Below the pieces are notes generated by a model. The model was not told where the DNA came from. It was given only the letters and a program-made list of their open reading frames with translations, and did no database searches. Positions 2,327 through 9,907 of a DNA stretch of 10,341 nucleotides are shown piece by piece (the first letter of the stretch is position 1; the number at the start of each line of letters is the position of its first letter). Position numbers and translations under genes: made by a program. The stretch is taken from assembly GCA_018902765.1 (NCBI GenBank), contig JAHIQC010000211.1:1-10341 (forward strand), written 5' to 3'. This stretch comes from Actinomycetota bacterium (GTDB taxonomy: Bacteria; Actinomycetota; Coriobacteriia; Anaerosomatales; JAHIQC01).

Positions 2327-3541
2327 CTACTTGTTGTGGCAGCTCTCGCACACGTAACGGTTGTCTCCGCGCAGAAGCGCGTTGCCGTCAGTGGGCGGAA
2401 CGCCACCAGTGCCGCTGTCGGGCTGCGGGTCGGTTGAATCGGCCACATTGGCGTAGCCGGTCATAACCGCGCTCGAGCCGTGAGCAACGTGACAGGTCAG
2501 GCAGTCGATCCAGTCCGTGCTGCTGTTGGTTGCCACGTCAGCGGAGCTTCCGTGAGCCAACGGCAAAGGCTGGGTCGTGATGATCAGCGAGCGCGCTCCC
2601 AAGTAGTTGCTGAGCGGTACGTTGACCGGGTGGCGATGACGAACGACCGCACCGAAGCCGTCGTTGCTGTCATAACCCAGAGCGACATTGACCACGCCAG
2701 CTGAATTCTCGGCGCCTGTCGGGTTGATGTACTGGATATGACATCCCGAACACCAGCCGCTCATGCCCTTTTCAGGGTCTGGGCCAGGAGTCAGATCAGC
2801 ATCCGGGGCCTTGGCATACATGGGCTGGGTGTAGTTGGGGGTGTAACCCGCAACCTGCAATGCACCAGGTGCATGAAGCAGCCAACCCGTTGTCGGATAG
2901 CCGGGCTCAGCCGAGACGACCCACGGGGTCGGCTTCGGATCCTCAGGCGTGTAACCAGGAGCGGTTCCGTCGTAGCCACCAACAACAGCGGCAGACGGAC
3001 GCTCGAGCGCCGGAAGGACGTCCTTGAGAAGACGATAGTTGGAGCTACCATGAACGTCATGGCAGGTCGAACAGCTCATCTCAACCTGAGGACCGTCCTT
3101 GAGGTTACCAAGGATGTCCGGCTCGGTGGATCCGCCGTACACCATCCACGACGCACCCGTGTACATGTGCTGCGTGGGGAACAAAGTAGCCTCAAAGCCA
3201 CCGCCGTTGAGCGGATCGTTCTGCGTACCGTTGGTCGTTCCTTCGTAGATGCCGGTTTCGACGTTGGTCTCAGCGCCGAGGCTTACGGAGTCATGACATG
3301 TGTAGCAGAACTGGTAGATCTCGGTGGACGTCCCGAGCAGCAACGCGCTGCCCTGGGTGTTGTCGGTCTTGGTCCACGTGATGGAGCTGGCAGCCGTGTG
3401 TGCGCGGTGACAACCGGCGCAGGCGTCCGTGTCCATCGTATAACCACCGTGGATCGAGAAGTTCGCCATCGCCACACCTGGGGTCAAAGCGATGATGACT
3501 GCCGCGGTTACGACCGCGAGCGCAATAAGGCGCTTACGCAT
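2327..3541 (-). CDS. Secreted hexaheme c-type cytochrome
   Basis: This is a 404-residue protein with a Sec signal (MRKR, a hydrophobic core, then cleavage probably after AMA at residue 26). Six CxxCH heme-c motifs begin at Cys41 (CAGCH), Cys79 (CYTCH), Cys157 (CSTCH), Cys264 (CSGCH), Cys347 (CLTCH) and Cys398 (CESCH). Three of them are followed by xxH (CHRAH, CHDVH, CHVAH), the doubled-CxxCH type of arrangement that can supply distal ligands. Other His residues (His125, His302, His304, His330) are candidates too. The protein ends two residues after the last heme motif and has no C-terminal anchor, so it is soluble outside the membrane or docked to a partner. Its start lies 6 bases after the fdhB stop and is preceded by GGGGAGGGG. 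The likely role is to accept electrons from the FdhAB module. Heme attachment needs cytochrome c maturation genes that are not in this window. Confidence 0.92.
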   Translation of the reverse strand: MRKRLIALAVVTAAVIIALTPGVAMANFSIHGGYTMDTDACAGCHRAHTAASSITWTKTDNTQGSALLLGTSTEIYQFCYTCHDSVSLGAETNVETGIYEGTTNGTQNDPLNGGGFEATLFPTQHMYTGASWMVYGGSTEPDILGNLKDGPQVEMSCSTCHDVHGSSNYRLLKDVLPALERPSAAVVGGYDGTAPGYTPEDPKPTPWVVSAEPGYPTTGWLLHAPGALQVAGYTPNYTQPMYAKAPDADLTPGPDPEKGMSGWCSGCHIQYINPTGAENSAGVVNVALGYDSNDGFGAVVRHRHPVNVPLSNYLGARSLIITTQPLPLAHGSSADVATNSSTDWIDCLTCHVAHGSSAVMTGYANVADSTDPQPDSGTGGVPPTDGNALLRGDNRYVCESCHNK

Positions 3542-3547
3542 TCTTGA

Positions 3548-4378
3548 TCACCCCTCCCCGTTAGCAAGGCGAATACGACGAGCTATCACCGCGATGATAC
3601 CACCGGCAACGAGCGTCGGCACCACGGTAGCCTTGCTGACAGAATCGGTCAGCATGCTCGAGAGCATCGGCGTGATGTGGTCTTCGACGAACGGGTCGGC
3701 CTTCGGAGCTGCGATGATGTACTTCTTACTTGCCCAGAACATGCTGCCGTCGCCCTGGTAGGAGATGTATCCACCAGTGGCAATGATTCCGCCAGCACCG
3801 ACGATAGCGGCACGAGTGTCCCACTGCATCGCCTTGGCAGGGCAGGTGTAGACACACGTAGGCTCATGCGCCTTCTCGGCGACAAGACCGATCTCCGCGG
3901 CCGTGGCACGCGTCGGGTTCGGATCGCCATACGCCGGGTCAAGGTCGGCTGCCGCGCCCGCAACACCGTTGCACAGCGTGCACTTCCAAGCCTTGGACGT
4001 GGTGAACAGGTCGCTACCGACACCGACCTTGGGATAACCGCCGCGCTGGCAGTCGGTCACGCACTGCCTGCTGCACTGGGTCGGATCACACTTGGTCGGA
4101 TCAATCGCGACTGCGCCGTCTGCCTTCTTCTCAAGCGCGCCGAAGGGGCAACGCTTGACACAGGGAGGATCGGGGCAGTGCCAGCAGCTGAATCGGATAA
4201 ACGGACCCATATCCAGTCGCTTCTGGCTCTTGATGATGACCCTCTGGTCCGGAGCGGTCTTGTGAACGCCCGGGTTAAGCGCCTTCATCTTCCACTTGCG
4301 CTTACAGCTGATTACGCAGCCGTTGCAGCGCATGCACTTATCTACATCTTGAAAAACAGCCATCGTATTAGTAGCCAC
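3548..4378 (-). CDS. fdhB: Formate dehydrogenase iron-sulfur (beta) subunit, FdnH/FdhB-like
   Basis: This 276-residue ferredoxin-type subunit should carry electrons from FdhA onward. Cysteine groups lie at 15/18/21/25 (CxxCxxCxxxC), 65/68/73/77 (CxxCx4CxxxC), 97/102/106/110, and 133/136 paired with 175/179, enough for four [4Fe-4S] clusters as in the DmsB/FdnH/NrfC family. The third group has spacing Cx4Cx3Cx3C, two residues longer than the usual CxxC opening. Residues about 248-266 form one hydrophobic segment followed by ARRIRL, a single C-terminal membrane anchor like that of FdnH. No signal peptide is visible; export together with the Tat-bearing FdhA is expected from the family. The start is GTG at 4378, supported by a near-perfect ribosome site (GGGAGGTGA) ending 6 bases upstream. 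An internal ATG at residue 6 lacks such support. It lies 15 bases after fdhA and 6 before the cytochrome gene. Confidence 0.93.
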   Translation of the reverse strand: MATNTMAVFQDVDKCMRCNGCVISCKRKWKMKALNPGVHKTAPDQRVIIKSQKRLDMGPFIRFSCWHCPDPPCVKRCPFGALEKKADGAVAIDPTKCDPTQCSRQCVTDCQRGGYPKVGVGSDLFTTSKAWKCTLCNGVAGAAADLDPAYGDPNPTRATAAEIGLVAEKAHEPTCVYTCPAKAMQWDTRAAIVGAGGIIATGGYISYQGDGSMFWASKKYIIAAPKADPFVEDHITPMLSSMLTDSVSKATVVPTLVAGGIIAVIARRIRLANGEG

Positions 4379-4393: not shown

Positions 4394-7300
4394 TTAGGAT
4401 ATCTTCGCGATATTGCACAGACAGGCCTTGTATTCGGGGATGGTCGTGTTCGCATCACCGGCGTCGATACACAGGTCGTTCGCACGGCTACCCGTGGAAA
4501 GACCGCGATCGCCCCAGTGCCACGGAATCGCGACGACACCCTGACCAACACGCTGGTTGGACTTCAGACCGACTCCAACGCGAGCCCTGAAGCCCTTTGC
4601 GAAGCCAGCTGCGCCATCCGTACGACTCTGCTGGTCGGCGATGCTGTCGCTTCTGGCGGTGGTGACATTCACCCAATCGCCGGTCACGATACCGAGTGCC
4701 TGAGCGTCGATCGAGTTGATCTCCACCCAAGGCTCCGGCTCCATCTCGACGTTCCACGCATTGTTGCGAGTGATGGGGCCGCCCTGGAAATGCTCGACGC
4801 ACCGAATGGTGGTTAGCACGAGCGGGTACGAGGCGGGATCGACCGTGTACGCAGGGTTGCGCCCTGAGCTCGAAGTGGCGACCATGGTGTCGGGCTTGAC
4901 ACAGCTCCACTTGGCTGCGCCGGTGGTGTTGCGACCCCATACAGCGGCGAGGTCTTCACGCGGCGTCTCGTACGGCTCCACGTGTCCAGGGAATCTACCC
5001 GTGAGCACGTGAGGCGCAGTGTAGCTGACCAGACACGTATCGGGCTTGTCCTTAAGGGTGTGAACCGAGCGGTACGTAGTTCCATAGTCAATCACGCCGC
5101 TGTTGGTGCTCACGAAGAGCCTCGCGACCTGATCTGGGCCCTGGAAGCCGTCGGCCTGATCCCAAGGAGTGTCGACGCTCTGGTTGTACAGGACTCGCCT
5201 GTTGACCAGCCACGCGTAACCCCAGTTCTTGAACATAAGGTTGTCGTCCTTGACGGCGTTATAGGCCGCCAGATCGGCAAAGCCAAGCGCCTGAGCTGCA
5301 GCATCGCTAGCCAGCGTCTGGCCAAGGTCGCGGTTGTCGCGCGACTTGGCGCGGTTGGCTACCACCCAGTCGCCGCCCTGGCCGCCCGTACCCGTACCGG
5401 GGGTGCCTGCGTATGCAAGCGTGTACAGCCAGAACGTGCCACCAGCAGGTCCGGGGGTCTTGACGTTGGCGCTCATCTGACGATAAACCGCCTCGCAGAC
5501 GGCCTCGGAGCCTGTGGCTGTGCCGAGCGTGGGAGCGGTTGCGTTTGCAGCCCAGCTCTCAACGTTGGCCATGGTCACAGCGGTCTCGAAAGAGCCAGTC
5601 GCAGGTGTCCATCCACCAGCGTACTGCTCGCCGTAAAGCTTGTCGTAGACCGTCCCAACGATCGGTACGGAGAGACTGGCCCACACGGCGGAGATATGCG
5701 AGAACGCTCCAGCGACGTCAAGTGCCTTCGCGAAACGAAGGAGCATCTCGATATCGGACTTGCTGTTGCCCAAAGGCATGGTCGCGCGCTCGCGCCACTG
5801 CAAGACACGTCCGGAGTTGGTAACGCTACCGGCTTCCTCGACGTATGAGCACGACGGAATCAGGTAGGTATAGCTACCGGTCTTGCGCTTACATGCGGCA
5901 GTCTCCTGCTCGAAGAGGTCGACGACCACGAGGGTGTCGAGGTTCTCCAGCCCGGTGCGCACCATGCTCTGGTTCGGCTCTGTGATTGCAGGATTCTGAC
6001 CCCAGACAACTGCGCCTCGGGTGATTCCAGCAGCCATGTTGCGGAACATGGTGATGTGATCGTTGCCGTTTGACTTGGGCCACAGTGCATAAATCTTGTC
6101 CATGTCACCAGCAACGAGGTTGCCGCCTGCATCCTGGATGTCACCAAAGAACTTGTTGGTCATCTTAAGGAAGCCTGCCTGCTGCAGCCCGTTCACGTAC
6201 TTGGCCGGGTTGTAGGCATCGGCGTAGGCACTGCCACTGAGCCGGATACCGTACAGCTTGTCCATGTACTGGCCGAACGACTGAGTGAAGTTCGGGTTCG
6301 CGGAGTACCCAGGAATCAGGTGATAGAGGAGACCCATGTCAGTGGAGCCCTGCACGTTGTGAATGCCGCGTAGAGCGTTGATGCCGCCACCCGCACGTCC
6401 CATGTTGCCCAGAAGCGTCTGGAGCGTCGCGAACGACTTGACGTTCTGGCCGCCGCAGGTGTGCTGGGTGATACCCATGGCATAGAGCATGGTGGTTGAG
6501 CGGTAGTACTGGTTCTTGGGATCAAACAAGATGGTCCCAGGCGTAGCCGGGTCATAGCTCGAGAAACGGCTGTTCTCCAGGTACGCATCGGCCACCGCAA
6601 CAATCTCGGCCTCGGTGCAACCGCAAATGTCGGCCACCGTGGTGAGATCGTACGGGGCGACCTGCTCGGCCAGCTTGTTGTACACGGTGTCGACGCCAGC
6701 CGCATTGTAGGAAGCGGCCATGACCGGCAGGCTCGAGATCCCGGACTGCAGCGAGCGCTGATAGTCCGGCTGACCGCCAAAACCAGTCTCGTCGATGACG
6801 AACGCTGCATCCGTATAGCGCGGACGCGACACGGCGGTGCCTGTGCCCAGATCGTTCGTGTACGTACGGCTCTGGTTCTGGTTGAGGTATGCCTCCCAGT
6901 TGGTCTTCTTTTGACCTGAGATGTTGGTGATGATGTAGTTGATCAGCCCGTTGATGAAGGCGATGTCGCTGCCGGGGCGGATACGCACGTAAAGATCGGC
7001 CTGGGCCGCAGTGCGCGTCTTTCGCGGATCGACGACGACGAGCTTCGCCTTGGGGTGACCGTTGGCGCCAGCACGGGCCTTATTGATGTGGGCCATGCTT
7101 GCGGGGTGATTCTCGGCCGGGTTGGCACCCATCACGATGAAGCACGTGGCGTTTGCCATATCCGTCCAGTTATTCGTCATTGCGCCTCGCCCGAATGCGG
7201 CGGCCAGACCGGCCACCGTAGACGAGTGTCAAATACGAGCCTGATGCTCGGTGTCTGTCGTCCCGAAGTTCGCAATGAGCTTCCGATAGACGTAGTTCGA

Positions 7301-7891
7301 CTCGTTGTTCATGTGAGAACTGCCGAAGAATACGACGCCCTTGCTGTCGTATTGCTCCAGACCGGTCGTCCAGTCGGCGTAGCCTCGAGCGACCACTTCG
7401 TCGTCACGATGGCCCTTGAGCCTGACAGCGGCTTCCTCCATAGCAGTCTGGAGATCCATCGCGGTCCAGTCGCTGGTGCCTTCGATGCGGCGATACGCAA
7501 CGCCCTCAGTGAAGGCGGGGTTGGCCGCAAAGACCGGATTCACGGGATGAGTACCCGCGTAAGCGCCGATACGACGCTTGTTGGTGACGAGCTGGAACGC
7601 GCCCGCACCCTTCGCACACAAACCGCCCTGGTTAAAGGGCGACATATAGTCGCCGTAGACATCGATGACGTTCTTATCAACGTCTACGTCGACAAGCTGC
7701 CCGCAACTCGCGGAACAGTAGGGGCATGTGGTGTGGTATGTCGCATCGACCGTCGCAGCAGCAGCCATTGAAGGCGCGACTGCGAAGTCGAGGCCGGCAG
7801 CACCAACAGCCGCAGCAGCAGCGCCAGTCTTCAGGAAATCCCGACGACTGAGGCCCTGCTTCACCCCTTCTTCCTTGTCGTATTTCGCCAT
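4394..7891 (-). CDS. fdhA: Formate dehydrogenase alpha subunit, selenocysteine-containing, Tat-exported (FdnG-like)
   Basis: One 1165-residue reading frame contains an in-frame UGA at 7229-7231. It catalyses formate oxidation to CO2 at a bis-MGD Mo or W site facing outside the cytoplasm. ATG 7891 is preceded by GAGAGGG at 7899-7905. Residues 15-21 are the Tat motif SRRDFLK, followed by an Ala-rich core. Cys56, Cys59, Cys63 and Cys92 bind one [4Fe-4S] cluster (CxxCxxxC-x28-C) and LCAKG follows. HQARI precedes Sec221 and His222; the next residues, TVAGLAAAFGRGAMTNNW, match the FDH family. Arg508 in INALRGIHNVQG is the counterpart of catalytic Arg333 of E. coli FdhF. The C-terminal molydopterin-binding domain includes EPWVEINSIDAQALGI and IPWHWGD. 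The protein is about 150 residues longer than E. coli FdnG (1015), with extra length both between Sec and Arg and further C-terminal. It heads the fdhAB-cytochrome operon behind a long regulated leader. Function requires SelA/B/C/D encoded elsewhere. Confidence 0.95.
7186..7231 (-). promoter_or_regulatory. Bacterial SECIS element with selenocysteine UGA codon
   Basis: The UGA is at 7231-7229. Eleven bases later the transcript forms a 7-bp stem, 7217-7211 (GGTGGCC) with 7205-7199 (GGCCGCC), closed by the loop GGTCT (7210-7206). A lower helix can form between CTCG (7226-7223) and CGAG (7189-7186). From memory, the E. coli fdhF SECIS has the same 11-base spacing from UGA to the apical stem and the same GGUCU apical loop, which is the SelB contact. 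The flanking frame stays open on both sides and the protein aligns across the UGA, so this is recoding and not a stop. Confidence 0.9.
7229..7231 (-). other. UGA codon decoded as selenocysteine (Sec221 of FdhA)
   Basis: TGA interrupts an otherwise continuous frame exactly between ARI and HSSTV, where Sec (or Cys in other homologues) ligates the metal in formate dehydrogenases. His222 right after it is the conserved catalytic histidine. Naive annotation would give two adjacent fragments, 7229-7891 and 4394-7216. Confidence 0.93.
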
Positions 7892-7944
7892 ACTGTATCC
7901 CTCTCTTTGCTCCACCAGCCGTTCCGGCGTGGCGGATCGGGTCC

Positions 7945-7971
7945 CGCGCGAGAGCGGTTCGCTCACGCGCG
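7945..7971 (-). other. GC-rich hairpin in the fdhA 5' leader
   Basis: On the transcript, CGCGCG (7971-7966) pairs with CGCGCG (7950-7945) and GAGCG (7964-7960) pairs with CGCTC (7956-7952), with a T/T mismatch between the two helices and a three-base loop. The hairpin ends about 53 bases before the fdhA start codon. No U-run follows, so it is unlikely to be a terminator; it may stabilise the mRNA 5' end after processing or pause polymerase. Confidence 0.5.
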
Positions 7972-7974
7972 CGT

Positions 7975-8085
7975 CTACACCGTGGACACCACCTCCTTCA
8001 GGATCGGGCGAAGGCTGAATCCGCGCACGAAAAAGCCGACCAGACTCCACGCCCTCGTGGTGCCATTCGGTCGGCCAGATTGCAC
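7975..8085 (-). CDS. Possible 36-residue leader ORF overlapping the terminator
   Basis: AAGGAGG at 8097-8091 lies 5 bases before GTG 8085, an excellent ribosome site in a region with no other gene. The frame runs 36 codons to TAG at 7977-7975 and would encode VQSGRPNGTTRAWSLVGFF and a basic/hydrophobic tail. It crosses both arms of the predicted terminator (8076-8030), so ribosomes on it would block hairpin formation. I do not recognise the peptide, and it may be fortuitous. It shows no obvious run of regulatory codons as in amino-acid attenuators. Confidence 0.25.
   Translation of the reverse strand: MQSGRPNGTTRAWSLVGFFVRGFSLRPILKEVVSTV
8030..8076 (-). terminator. Intrinsic terminator in the fdhA leader (attenuator)
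   Basis: On the minus-strand transcript GGCCGACC (8076-8069) pairs with GGTCGGC (8041-8035) plus a terminal G-U, and five T residues follow at once (8034-8030). Inside, CCACG (8060-8056) and CGTGG (8051-8047) form a second stem with an AGGG loop. A stem followed by a U-run, about 140 bases upstream of fdhA and after the riboswitch-like element, is the arrangement of transcription attenuation. The internal loops on both sides of the upper stem make it less compact than typical. Confidence 0.65.
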
Positions 8086-8117
8086 GCGCGCCTCCTTACC
8101 CAGTAGATGAGCGATCA

Positions 8118-8137
8118 GAGACGCCGCCGGGCGCCTC
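8118..8137 (-). other. Strong 8-bp hairpin between the riboswitch-like RNA and the terminator
   Basis: GAGGCGCC (8137-8130) pairs with GGCGTCTC (8125-8118), one G-U included, around the loop CGGC. The 3' arm contains CGTCTC, which can also pair with GGAGACG (8157-8151), the 3' strand of the riboswitch-like P1 helix. It therefore has the makings of a competing structure that reads P1 formation. Confidence 0.5.
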
Positions 8138-8144
8138 AACACTG

Positions 8145-8250
8145 AACGCTCGTCTCCTTTCCACCGGGAGGCATCGTCGTTTCCTTCGATACCCTGATCG
8201 GCTACACCGCCATAGCTCACGCGTTAGGTCGATGCAGCTCGGAGACCGTT
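8145..8250 (-). ncRNA. Moco (molybdenum/tungsten cofactor) riboswitch-like element
   Basis: P1: GTCTCC (8246-8241) pairs with GGAGAC (8157-8152), extended by AACG (8250-8247) with CGTT (8148-8145) past a 3-base bulge. P2: GCATCG (8235-8230) pairs with CGATGC (8176-8171). An internal hairpin joins GCTAT (8216-8212) to GTAGC (8205-8201). The single-stranded signature CTCCGAGC on the 5' side, and GATGCCTCCC followed by GGAAAGGAG on the 3' side, match what I remember of the Moco RNA motif, known upstream of Moco synthesis genes, molybdate transport genes and Moco enzymes. Its location upstream of a Moco/W-cofactor enzyme and ahead of a terminator agrees. Presence of the internal hairpin favours Moco over the 'Tuco' variant. 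The family assignment is from memory, not a covariance search. Confidence 0.65.
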
Positions 8251-8285
8251 CCTATATGTCGTCGCATGTACCCGTCCCGCAGGCC

Positions 8286-8303
8286 TTGTAACTTTCGTTA
8301 CAA
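8286..8303 (-). promoter_or_regulatory. Perfect palindrome TTGTAAC-GAAA-GTTACAA, candidate operator
   Basis: The two 7-base arms are perfect inverted repeats around GAAA. Read as TGTAA-N6-TTACA it has the 5-6-5 geometry of CRP/FNR-family regulators, which commonly control anaerobic respiration operons. It sits just downstream of the predicted -10 (8321-8316), where a bound protein would repress that promoter. As RNA it would be a GAAA tetraloop hairpin at the 5' end of the transcript. The regulator is not in this window. Confidence 0.5.
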
Positions 8304-8315
8304 TACGACGTCTCG

Positions 8316-8344
8316 ACGTTACTCCTGAGCACGATAAACGTCAA
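8316..8344 (-). promoter_or_regulatory. Sigma-70-type promoter for the fdhA operon
   Basis: TTGACG (8344-8339) and TAACGT (8321-8316) are separated by exactly 17 bases. TTGACn with TAnnnT is a standard housekeeping-sigma pattern in GC-rich bacteria. Transcription would start near 8309, about 420 bases before the fdhA ATG, which puts the riboswitch-like RNA and terminator inside the leader. An ACGTC-GA-GACGT inverted repeat (8319-8308) overlaps the start region. Confidence 0.55.
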
Positions 8345-8371
8345 CTACCGTTCGTCGCAATTGCTTGATAA

Positions 8372-9907
8372 CTATGAACTTGATCGGGCATTCTTCGCGT
8401 AGCGCTCTAGGAACGTCCGGACATCGAGGACCTCGATGTCCAAGGCGCCTGCGAACGACGCCATGCGAGTATCCTGCGTGCAGAGTCGACCGGCGCGCTT
8501 GGCCACGACCAACAGCACCGCCTCGTCATAGGTGATGCCCATGCGATCCACCAGATCGCGCGCATCTGAATCAGAGTGCTCGACACCTTCGATGAGCGCG
8601 CCCAGGTCGACTCCTTGGATAACCTTGCCCTCAAAGACCGACCAGCGCGCCTGCGGCGTCAGCCACTTCCAGCGCCTACGCTCCATACGAGGAACAAGTT
8701 CACGTCGCTCGAGCTCGACCACGAAGTCCTCGGTGACCGCAAAGCGCTTGCGACGCCACCACCAAAGAAGGAGCGGCAGCAGGAGGAGCGGTGCCGCACA
8801 CAAAGCGGCCCACTGGCTGCGGGTCTTGGGCATGCCGGGGACGACGATCTCATCTTCGGGCCAGGCCCAGACCTGGATCTGATGATTCTCGCGGTCGGAT
8901 ATGTAGATGTGCTCCTGGCGATCGAGCGCGACGTCGTTCGCATAGCGGAACTCCCCAGGACCGACGCCCTGAGCTCCGAAGGTGACTATGCGCTCCCCTT
9001 TGAGGGAGTAGACGTCCGTTGTGTGCGCAAGTGCATCCACGACGTACAGGCGTTCCTTTGAGTCTATGGCCAGCCCACGGGGGATTCCCGCGGTGCGGAT
9101 GAGGTAATCGAACGAGCCGTCGGGCTTGTACACCTGGATCCTGCGGTTGTTGCTGTCGCCCACGAAGAGCCGGCCGTCCTTGCTCACCACGATCCCGTTG
9201 GGGAAGTAGAACTCGCCGGGAAAGTCCGACATTTGATTGGCGCGTCCGGTCTTGCCGAAGCGACGCAGCTCGCGCCCGTCCGGCGTAAACACGATCACGC
9301 GATGATTGTTCGTCTGGCCCACATCGGTCGCATACAGGTTGCCTGCAGCATCCCACGTCATCGCGAGCGGACTCCACGTGTTTGCATCTGGCATACCCGG
9401 GACTATCTTGCGGATGAAGTCACCTTGGACGGTGAACACGAGGATGGCGCGCACCCGCCTGTCGGACACATACAAGTTGCCATCAGGGCCGATGGCCAGA
9501 TGGGCCGGAGCTTCAAGCTGATCGGATATGGTGAAGCGATAACGCCCTTCGGTCGAGTAGACTCTCACCACACCGACCTCGGTGTCGGTCGCAAAGACCA
9601 GATCGTCCTTGGTGACCGCCACGCCGACGGGGCGCGTCAGTGCGTCATTGCCCGGAGGGCCCGAAATCGAGTACAGATACTCCGGCGGTGCCACCTCTTG
9701 GACCGCAGTACTGCCGATCCTTGGAATGGGTAGGCGCCTGTTGTTGACGTAGTAGTACGTGGCCCACAGGACCAGCAGGAACAACAGCAGGAGCAAGACG
9801 AGCATGACGATCTTCTTGATCGTCGATGACCGCTTCTTGCGTGCAGGGGTGCTATGGAATTCTGTATCCTTCATCGGATCCGTCACGTCCGCATGCCTTC
9901 CTGTCAT
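8372..9907 (-). CDS. Membrane-anchored six-bladed NHL beta-propeller with C-terminal PIN-like tail
   Basis: This is a 511-residue protein. Lys/Arg-rich residues about 22-32 precede a Leu-rich membrane segment (about 33-54). Six NHL-type repeats follow to about residue 355, each with a pattern such as PxGIAVxxDGRLFVxDxxNxRIQVY; clear copies begin at LTRPVGVAV, LEAPAHLAI, FYFPNGIVV, IPRGLAID and FRYANDVAL. A second membrane segment (about 365-384, ending WWWRRKR) returns the chain across the membrane, leaving about 126 C-terminal residues in the cytoplasm by the positive-inside rule. In that tail, residues about 450-503 (YDEAVLLVVAKRAG, LCTQDTRMASFAG, IEVLDVRTFLERY) resemble the C-terminal half of a PIN domain, but the usual N-terminal catalytic Asp is not obvious. 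ATG 9907 overlaps the upstream TPR-gene stop (ATGA) and its ribosome site is weak, so coupling is likely. The propeller probably binds a ligand or protein outside; function unknown. Confidence 0.88.
   Translation of the reverse strand: MTGRHADVTDPMKDTEFHSTPARKKRSSTIKKIVMLVLLLLLFLLVLWATYYYVNNRRLPIPRIGSTAVQEVAPPEYLYSISGPPGNDALTRPVGVAVTKDDLVFATDTEVGVVRVYSTEGRYRFTISDQLEAPAHLAIGPDGNLYVSDRRVRAILVFTVQGDFIRKIVPGMPDANTWSPLAMTWDAAGNLYATDVGQTNNHRVIVFTPDGRELRRFGKTGRANQMSDFPGEFYFPNGIVVSKDGRLFVGDSNNRRIQVYKPDGSFDYLIRTAGIPRGLAIDSKERLYVVDALAHTTDVYSLKGERIVTFGAQGVGPGEFRYANDVALDRQEHIYISDRENHQIQVWAWPEDEIVVPGMPKTRSQWAALCAAPLLLLPLLLWWWRRKRFAVTEDFVVELERRELVPRMERRRWKWLTPQARWSVFEGKVIQGVDLGALIEGVEHSDSDARDLVDRMGITYDEAVLLVVAKRAGRLCTQDTRMASFAGALDIEVLDVRTFLERYAKNARSSS

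Follow-up and report, generated by a model that had tools for sequence, protein, structure and literature searches.

What does the structured RNA in front of fdhA in this actinobacterial genome sense, and how does it act on the operon behind it? The window analyzed here is a stretch of 10,341 nucleotides from an uncultured Actinomycetota bacterium of the class Coriobacteriia and the order Anaerosomatales, in which a first-pass annotation had predicted a Moco-riboswitch-like RNA before a formate dehydrogenase operon and, with it, direct control of the enzyme by its own cofactor. Our main reading, to which we assign a probability of roughly 55%, is that the leader of this selenocysteine (Sec) formate dehydrogenase operon contains a P3-lacking riboswitch of the Moco family that senses the tungsten cofactor and, by exchange of a decoy strand, turns fdhA ON. 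The parts of this reading differ in strength: that the RNA belongs to the Moco family is virtually certain, and that it controls fdhA is very probable. The features of the locus are collected in Table 1.

Membership in the Moco family is demonstrated by the Rfam Moco RNA model RF01055, which in a cmscan search of the window matches 8256-8138 on the minus strand over its full length (model 1-135) with 65.8 bits against a gathering score of 36 (E 2.1e-14 for the window), bearing out the annotation. The match has an E of 1e-15 when the whole source genome (G000; 2.09 Mb in 458 contigs, 73% complete) is searched, and it is the sole RF01055 match there. The strings CTCCGAGC, GATGCCTCCC and GGAAAGGAG, which had been singled out as conserved looking, are found on the minus strand, and the P1 extension is seen in a fold with P1 enforced. 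P4 has a GNRA tetraloop (GGAAAC loop) and P2 a receptor (CCTAA...TATGG), both recognized by sequence. The placement of the RNA between a promoter and a terminator stood in its second half: a terminator-like hairpin lies at 8076-8030, and a consensus scan of 7850-8400 returned no promoter.

Table 1. Features of the fdhA leader and operon, with positions in the window
Feature	Position	Strand	Basis
Operator-like inverted repeat TTGTAAC-N4-GTTACAA, TTGTAACGAAAGTTACAA	8286..8303	.	
Moco-family (RF01055) aptamer, P3-lacking	8138..8256	-	cmscan, 65.8 bits; junction GCCGATCAGGG without P3 stem
P1 5' strand GTCTCC	8241..8246	-	coordinates and covariation
Conserved core GCCTCCC and P5 loop	8161..8172	-	CCC can pair with P5 GG or with GGG of the downstream strand
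P1 3' strand GGAGAC	8152..8157	-	coordinates and covariation
Leader hairpin "P6" between aptamer and purine strand	8109..8151	-	fold; arms coevolve
Candidate decoy strand CATCTACTGGGTAAGGAGGCG (GGGTAAGGAGGC at 8101-8090), complementary to P1 5' strand	8089..8109	-	column-wise test not significant
Intrinsic-terminator-like hairpin GGCCGACC...GGTCGGC and TTTTT	8030..8076	-	fold -26.6 kcal/mol, U5; covaries; termination itself predicted
Second purine element TGAAGGAGGTGG past terminator	7989..8000	-	conservation
fdhA ribosome-binding region GAGAGGG and ATG	7889..7905	-	ATG at 7891
fdhA, Tat signal, in-frame TGA (selenocysteine) at 7231-7229	4394..7891	-	
SECIS_3-like element at UGA	7176..7234	-	48.5 bits, below gathering 63
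fdhB-like 4Fe-4S subunit	3548..4378	-	
Multiheme cytochrome c, 6 CXXCH	2327..3541	-	

FdhA has the domains Molybdop_Fe4S4, Molybdopterin and Molydop_binding. The prediction of Sec in FdhA is supported by the in-frame TGA and by SelB and tRNA-Sec in the genome (one match each, over the cut-off), despite a SECIS_3 (RF01989) match that falls short of its gathering threshold. The best solved sequence relatives of FdhA are the Sec-containing FdhA entries 9qm0, 8cm4 and 6sdr (E near 1e-105), followed by 1h0h; we take the first three to be the tungsten FdhA of Desulfovibrio vulgaris and the nearest solved chains to be tungsten enzymes.

To place this leader among its relatives, RF01055 was searched in 119 genomes, including the source genome, giving 133 matches in 68 of them, one below the cut-off (L127, G085:C34, a degenerate match directly 5' of an AOR gene). 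Clustering of the first downstream genes yielded 57 TupA-like, 42 FdhA (41 by cluster and one, in G062, added separately) and 34 other genes (two without a called gene); at least three more in the last class have a TupA-like match behind them that ORF calling missed (G010:C56, G011:C70 and G030:C10). We use the name TupA-like because the curated cut-off of TupA model NF041772, 400 bits, is reached in none of the 119 genomes (best E 4.9e-69); one representative matches it with E 2e-62 and a second with 2e-22. P3 was scored by the junction pattern, which left 3 of the 133 matches unassigned (two FdhA leaders and L127). It is absent before all 57 TupA-like genes and all 42 FdhA genes (40 from the pattern, 2 read by eye), and among the other genes it is absent before 27 of 34, present before six and unassigned once. 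Two neighboring Moco-family RNAs, separated by a few hundred to ~1200 bases, occur at each of L041 (G053:C13), L071 (G023:C7), L075 (G025:C35), L113 (G085:C101) and L116 (G016:C2).

The absence of P3 bears directly on the ligand. Regulski et al. 2008 (PMC2408646; here and below, the portions of this paper available to us) proposed that Moco RNAs lacking P3 sense the tungsten cofactor (Tuco); this specificity was inferred and not measured, direct ligand binding could not be shown, and tupA homologs were used for assigning tungsten use. For the window, the idea that Moco controls the fdh operon keeps its footing in the RNA family and in the position before a Mo/W enzyme operon, but the ligand it named is doubtful because the window copy lacks P3 and the same sub-type precedes 57 TupA-like genes. 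We infer that the ligand is the tungsten cofactor, which we regard as likely. Three comparisons point in this direction. First, among the genomes of the order (its own and 68 others), 62 have a P3-lacking RNA and all 62 have a TupA-like or AOR match, while of the seven without this RNA three have AOR (G001, G020 and G066) and four have neither (G016, G022, G031 and G043; Fisher p 4e-5, a figure weakened by shared ancestry and incomplete genomes). Second, an RNA lies close upstream of 59 of the 68 TupA-like matches. Third, G016, the sole genome of the order with P3-containing RNAs only, accounts for four of the six such RNAs in the other class; one of them precedes modA (154 bits, cut-off 62.5), and searches of G016 gave neither a TupA-like nor an AOR match.

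The strongest competitor has the same riboswitch binding Moco, with the loss of P3 leaving specificity unchanged. Formate dehydrogenases use Mo or W, a P3-lacking RNA (L012) precedes a modA-like gene (106 bits) in G045, and the source genome, 73% complete, encodes ModA and gave no TupA-like match; to this can be added that the specificity of P3-lacking RNAs was only inferred in the available text of Regulski et al. 2008 (PMC2408646). Set against the 57 P3-lacking RNAs before TupA-like genes, the AOR homologs encoded in the source genome and the contrast offered by G016, we nevertheless consider Moco an unlikely ligand. In the source genome, no Moco RNA match lies near the ModA gene. Both forms of the RNA occur in G085 and G089. 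Near the P3-containing RNAs L116 and L124 of G016 lie ORFs that, from the look of their sequence, we take to be FmdE-like.

How would such an RNA act on fdhA? On the minus strand, the inverted repeat is followed by the aptamer, the P6 hairpin (the arms of which coevolve; 0 of 5000 permutations), a purine strand, the terminator, a second purine element, the ribosome site and the ATG, and the distance from aptamer to ATG is 246 nt in the window and 206-276 nt in 38 FdhA leaders. The purine strand, with the consensus GGGGTAAGGGAGGC in FdhA leaders and GGGTAAGGAGGC in the window, is similar to the 3' strand of the aptamer itself (GG-AAA-GGAG against GGGG-TAA-GGGAG), and a further conserved GAAGGAGG follows the terminator in FdhA leaders. 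A simple terminator scan reported none, although the hairpin and U run are present at 8076-8030. The layout before TupA-like genes is another one: here, the purine stretch in the 3' strand of P1 is followed at 3-9 nt by a start codon (ATG, GTG or TTG) in 55 of the 57 cases. Burial of the ribosome site in P1 is the arrangement to which the OFF behavior of the E. coli moaA switch has been attributed (Regulski et al. 2008, PMC2408646), and by analogy the TupA-like copies look to have an OFF-switch layout. By this measure the two layouts overlap somewhat, since in 10 of the 42 FdhA leaders, too, an ATG follows the P1 purine stretch at no more than 18 nt. As minor observations, the AAGGAGG element at 7989-8000 lies ~100 nt before the fdhA ATG and, by eye, has no obvious start codon at a constant spacing; the window contains two copies of AAGGAGG, which by itself is not beyond chance (38 of 200 shuffles).

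We suggest that, as long as no ligand is bound, the decoy at 8109-8089, a mimic of the aptamer 3' strand, would pair with the P1 5' strand and with the core CCC, and that the terminator at 8076-8030 would then stop transcription before fdhA. With ligand bound, P1 would close on its own 3' strand and release the decoy, and the free decoy would increase read-through, most simply via a ribosome or other factor that uses GGGTAAGGAGG beside the terminator 5' arm. In this way the cofactor would switch the enzyme ON at fdhA; in front of tupA-like genes, by contrast, an aptamer of the same type would switch tungstate uptake OFF through the ribosome-binding site buried in P1. On balance we lean toward the ON direction for fdhA. 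An OFF switch, in which the ligand favors termination and shuts fdhA off, would agree with the OFF behavior of the E. coli moaA switch, with the OFF look of the TupA-like copies and with the outcome of our search for an explicit antiterminator as an ON design calls for, which found none; however, it would be strange for a cofactor to repress the enzyme that uses it, and the fdhA leader is unlike that of the TupA-like genes and contains a strand that, in the ligand-free state, is predicted to pair with P1. We hold this reading to be rather improbable.

Folding models and swap tests make strand exchange between the P1 5' strand and the decoy likely. The decoy conformer is predicted to be more stable than enforced P1 plus P5 in 34 of 36 leaders, by a median of -8.5 kcal/mol (2 of the 38 leaders gave no pairing, and the energies include no ligand, tertiary terms or shuffled control). 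In a duplex swap test, pairing of the P1 5' strand with the decoy gave a family-level p of 0.004, and the pairing P5' gave 0.019, or 0.028 with tighter windows, these windows having been chosen after a scan of the same leaders. In that coevolution scan (2564 window pairs, 21 of the 38 leaders), P5' (columns 97-111 with 193-207) reached z -4.3; the pairs scoring above it fall in the helices of the aptamer, in the leader and terminator hairpins and in a local hairpin at columns 415-447, and pairs without explanation reach z -3.7. Column-wise covariation between decoy and P1 was not significant: there was one double change, and 47 of 500 shuffles attained the covariation score and 167 of 500 the paired cells. 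Among the 60 best window pairs, no antiterminator taking the terminator 5' arm was found, which leaves a gap in the model between aptamer and terminator: this arm pairs with its own 3' arm (z to -8.9), and the sole other partner overlapping it is a weak one, pairing columns 103-117 with 223-237 (z -2.7, -2.8 kcal/mol). Two further pairings were considered and rejected. CCTCCC and GGGAGGC are fully complementary in many leaders, yet the core is (nearly) invariant and the swap test gave p 0.79; an outer stem around the terminator, formed by the purine strand and a tract after the terminator, was not significant (p 0.13). The local hairpin at A1 columns 415-447 lies just upstream of the fdhA ribosome site, and its arms coevolve (z -4.5).

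The terminator begins 14-23 nt past the purine strand, and a ribosome at an ATG adjacent to the decoy could block it. Of the 38 leaders, 20 have such an ATG no more than 20 nt from the strand (24 if GTG is counted as well), against a shuffle mean of 8.6 and a largest value of 18 in 2000 shuffles, related leaders not being independent. This enrichment also feeds a different explanation, namely that the purine strand is the ribosome-binding site of a leader ORF, translation by or through the terminator drives read-through and the complementarity to P1 is incidental. The column-wise test, which lends the decoy pairing no support, would suit it, as would four f12 leaders (L130, L015, L011 and L129) in which an ATG after the purine strand is followed immediately by a stop (ATGTGA or ATGTAG) beside the terminator. 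Yet 14 of the 38 leaders have neither ATG nor GTG near the strand, and conservation extends into the GGGG before the SD-like part. Nor is there a conserved peptide: the 81-aa ORF at 7975-8220, compared with 133 downstream regions, found besides itself a best E of 0.044, and since these matches are weak a conserved peptide is rejected while a ribosome-binding role is not. We judge this explanation improbable, less so than chance folding but more so than an OFF switch, and retain decoy exchange as the preferred reading.

The aptamer and terminator themselves are firmly supported by covariation. With four paralogue leaders of 33-35% FdhA identity left out, the aptamer helices and terminator reach 95.0% paired cells in the remaining 38 of 42 FdhA leaders, and 20 of their 35 pairs show changes on both sides; the tested structure is the RNAalifold consensus of the same 38-leader alignment, which favors the 95.0% figure. 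Neither value is reached in any of 500 shuffles, and slid versions of the structure have at most 48.9% paired cells and 9 double-changed pairs. Changes on both sides affect 4 of 6 pairs in P1 and 3 of 4 in the outer P2 helix, the two helices in which, according to the first-pass annotation, a lack of covariation in homologous leaders together with the lack of a cmscan hit would have spoken against it, as well as 5 of 10 in P4 and 7 of 9 in the terminator hairpin. That the leader is a chance fold or an unrelated structured RNA is hardly conceivable: GC-rich leaders fold readily, and the fold energy of the window leader is on its own weak evidence since it reaches only z -2.95, but a full-length Rfam match at E 2e-14 and the covariation across fdhA leaders stand against it.

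The RNA family and its P3-lacking sub-class are already known; the lineage and the gene pairing are new. With the P3-lacking RNAs of Regulski et al. 2008 (PMC2408646), the window RNA shares the full-length model match, the lack of P3, a place in front of a Mo/W enzyme, the P4 GAAA tetraloop and the P2 receptor sequence CCTA..ATGG, and both the P1-ribosome-binding-site and terminator platforms are reported there; the lineage differs, and the available portions of that paper do not describe a conserved purine strand before the terminator or the pairing of FdhA and TupA-like genes in one order. The E. coli moaA Moco riboswitch shares the aptamer core, and its ribosome-site-in-P1 layout is common to the TupA-like copies; it has P3 and is OFF, whereas the window copy has 246 nt from aptamer to ATG and a terminator. 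The accessible part of PMC12121620 describes the E. coli switch as modulating transcription termination, citing a 2023 structural study. In Eubacterium limosum, a Moco RNA upstream of a hydrogenase complex linked to formate dehydrogenase is likewise tied to formate dehydrogenase metabolism (PMC5651825), in a different phylum and with no platform analysis described in the accessible part of that paper. In the open-licence literature we found no later test of the P3-lacking tungsten proposal, and no title or abstract opening concerned the Moco leaders of this order, which is weak evidence of novelty. This lineage ties the P3-lacking RNA to TupA-like genes and a Sec formate dehydrogenase, with G016 having the P3-containing form only; matched leaders, P3-lacking against those of G016, permit a direct test of the 2008 tungsten proposal, and the predicted ON platform can be set against the known OFF one.

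The inverted repeat upstream of the aptamer points to a possible second layer of control. At a threshold of at least 12 of 14 positions, it is present in 32 of 42 FdhA leaders, beginning 47-79 nt ahead of the aptamer, compared with 2 of 57 TupA-like leaders, 1 of the 33 others long enough to score and none of 2100 shuffles; the window copy is the only perfect repeat in the source genome. Among 30 Rex loci compared, 4 of the 8 of PEGVIERLP type have the repeat (13-14 of 14) at 71-77 nt ahead of the domain, and the 22 others all stay below 12 of 14. The repeat is present at 13 of 14 at the Rex locus of G001 and before a Rex-like gene in G017, the latter site having been located via the repeat itself, while the sole Rex match of the source genome is of the other type, with only 7 of 14. 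Because the repeat stands before some of the Rex-like genes, our best guess for the regulator at this candidate operator is a redox repressor of the Rex type, and the operator may add a second layer to the leader. HcpR2, with the site GTAACnnnnGTTAC (PMC1274295, available portion), is a less favored rival regulator; the Rex loci give the better fit. We tentatively picture a tungsten-cofactor regulon in which one aptamer type would serve an OFF platform before tupA-like genes and an ON platform before fdhA, overlaid by a Rex-like redox operator, although we would not yet bet on the whole of it; if true, such a two-platform regulon would be a clear natural test of the idea of a tungsten-sensing riboswitch. 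Upstream of the leader, an NHL-repeat protein is encoded on the same strand at 8372-9907, and in L145 an ORF that by eye is similar to it (SRPVGVAV stretch) adjoins the inverted repeat.
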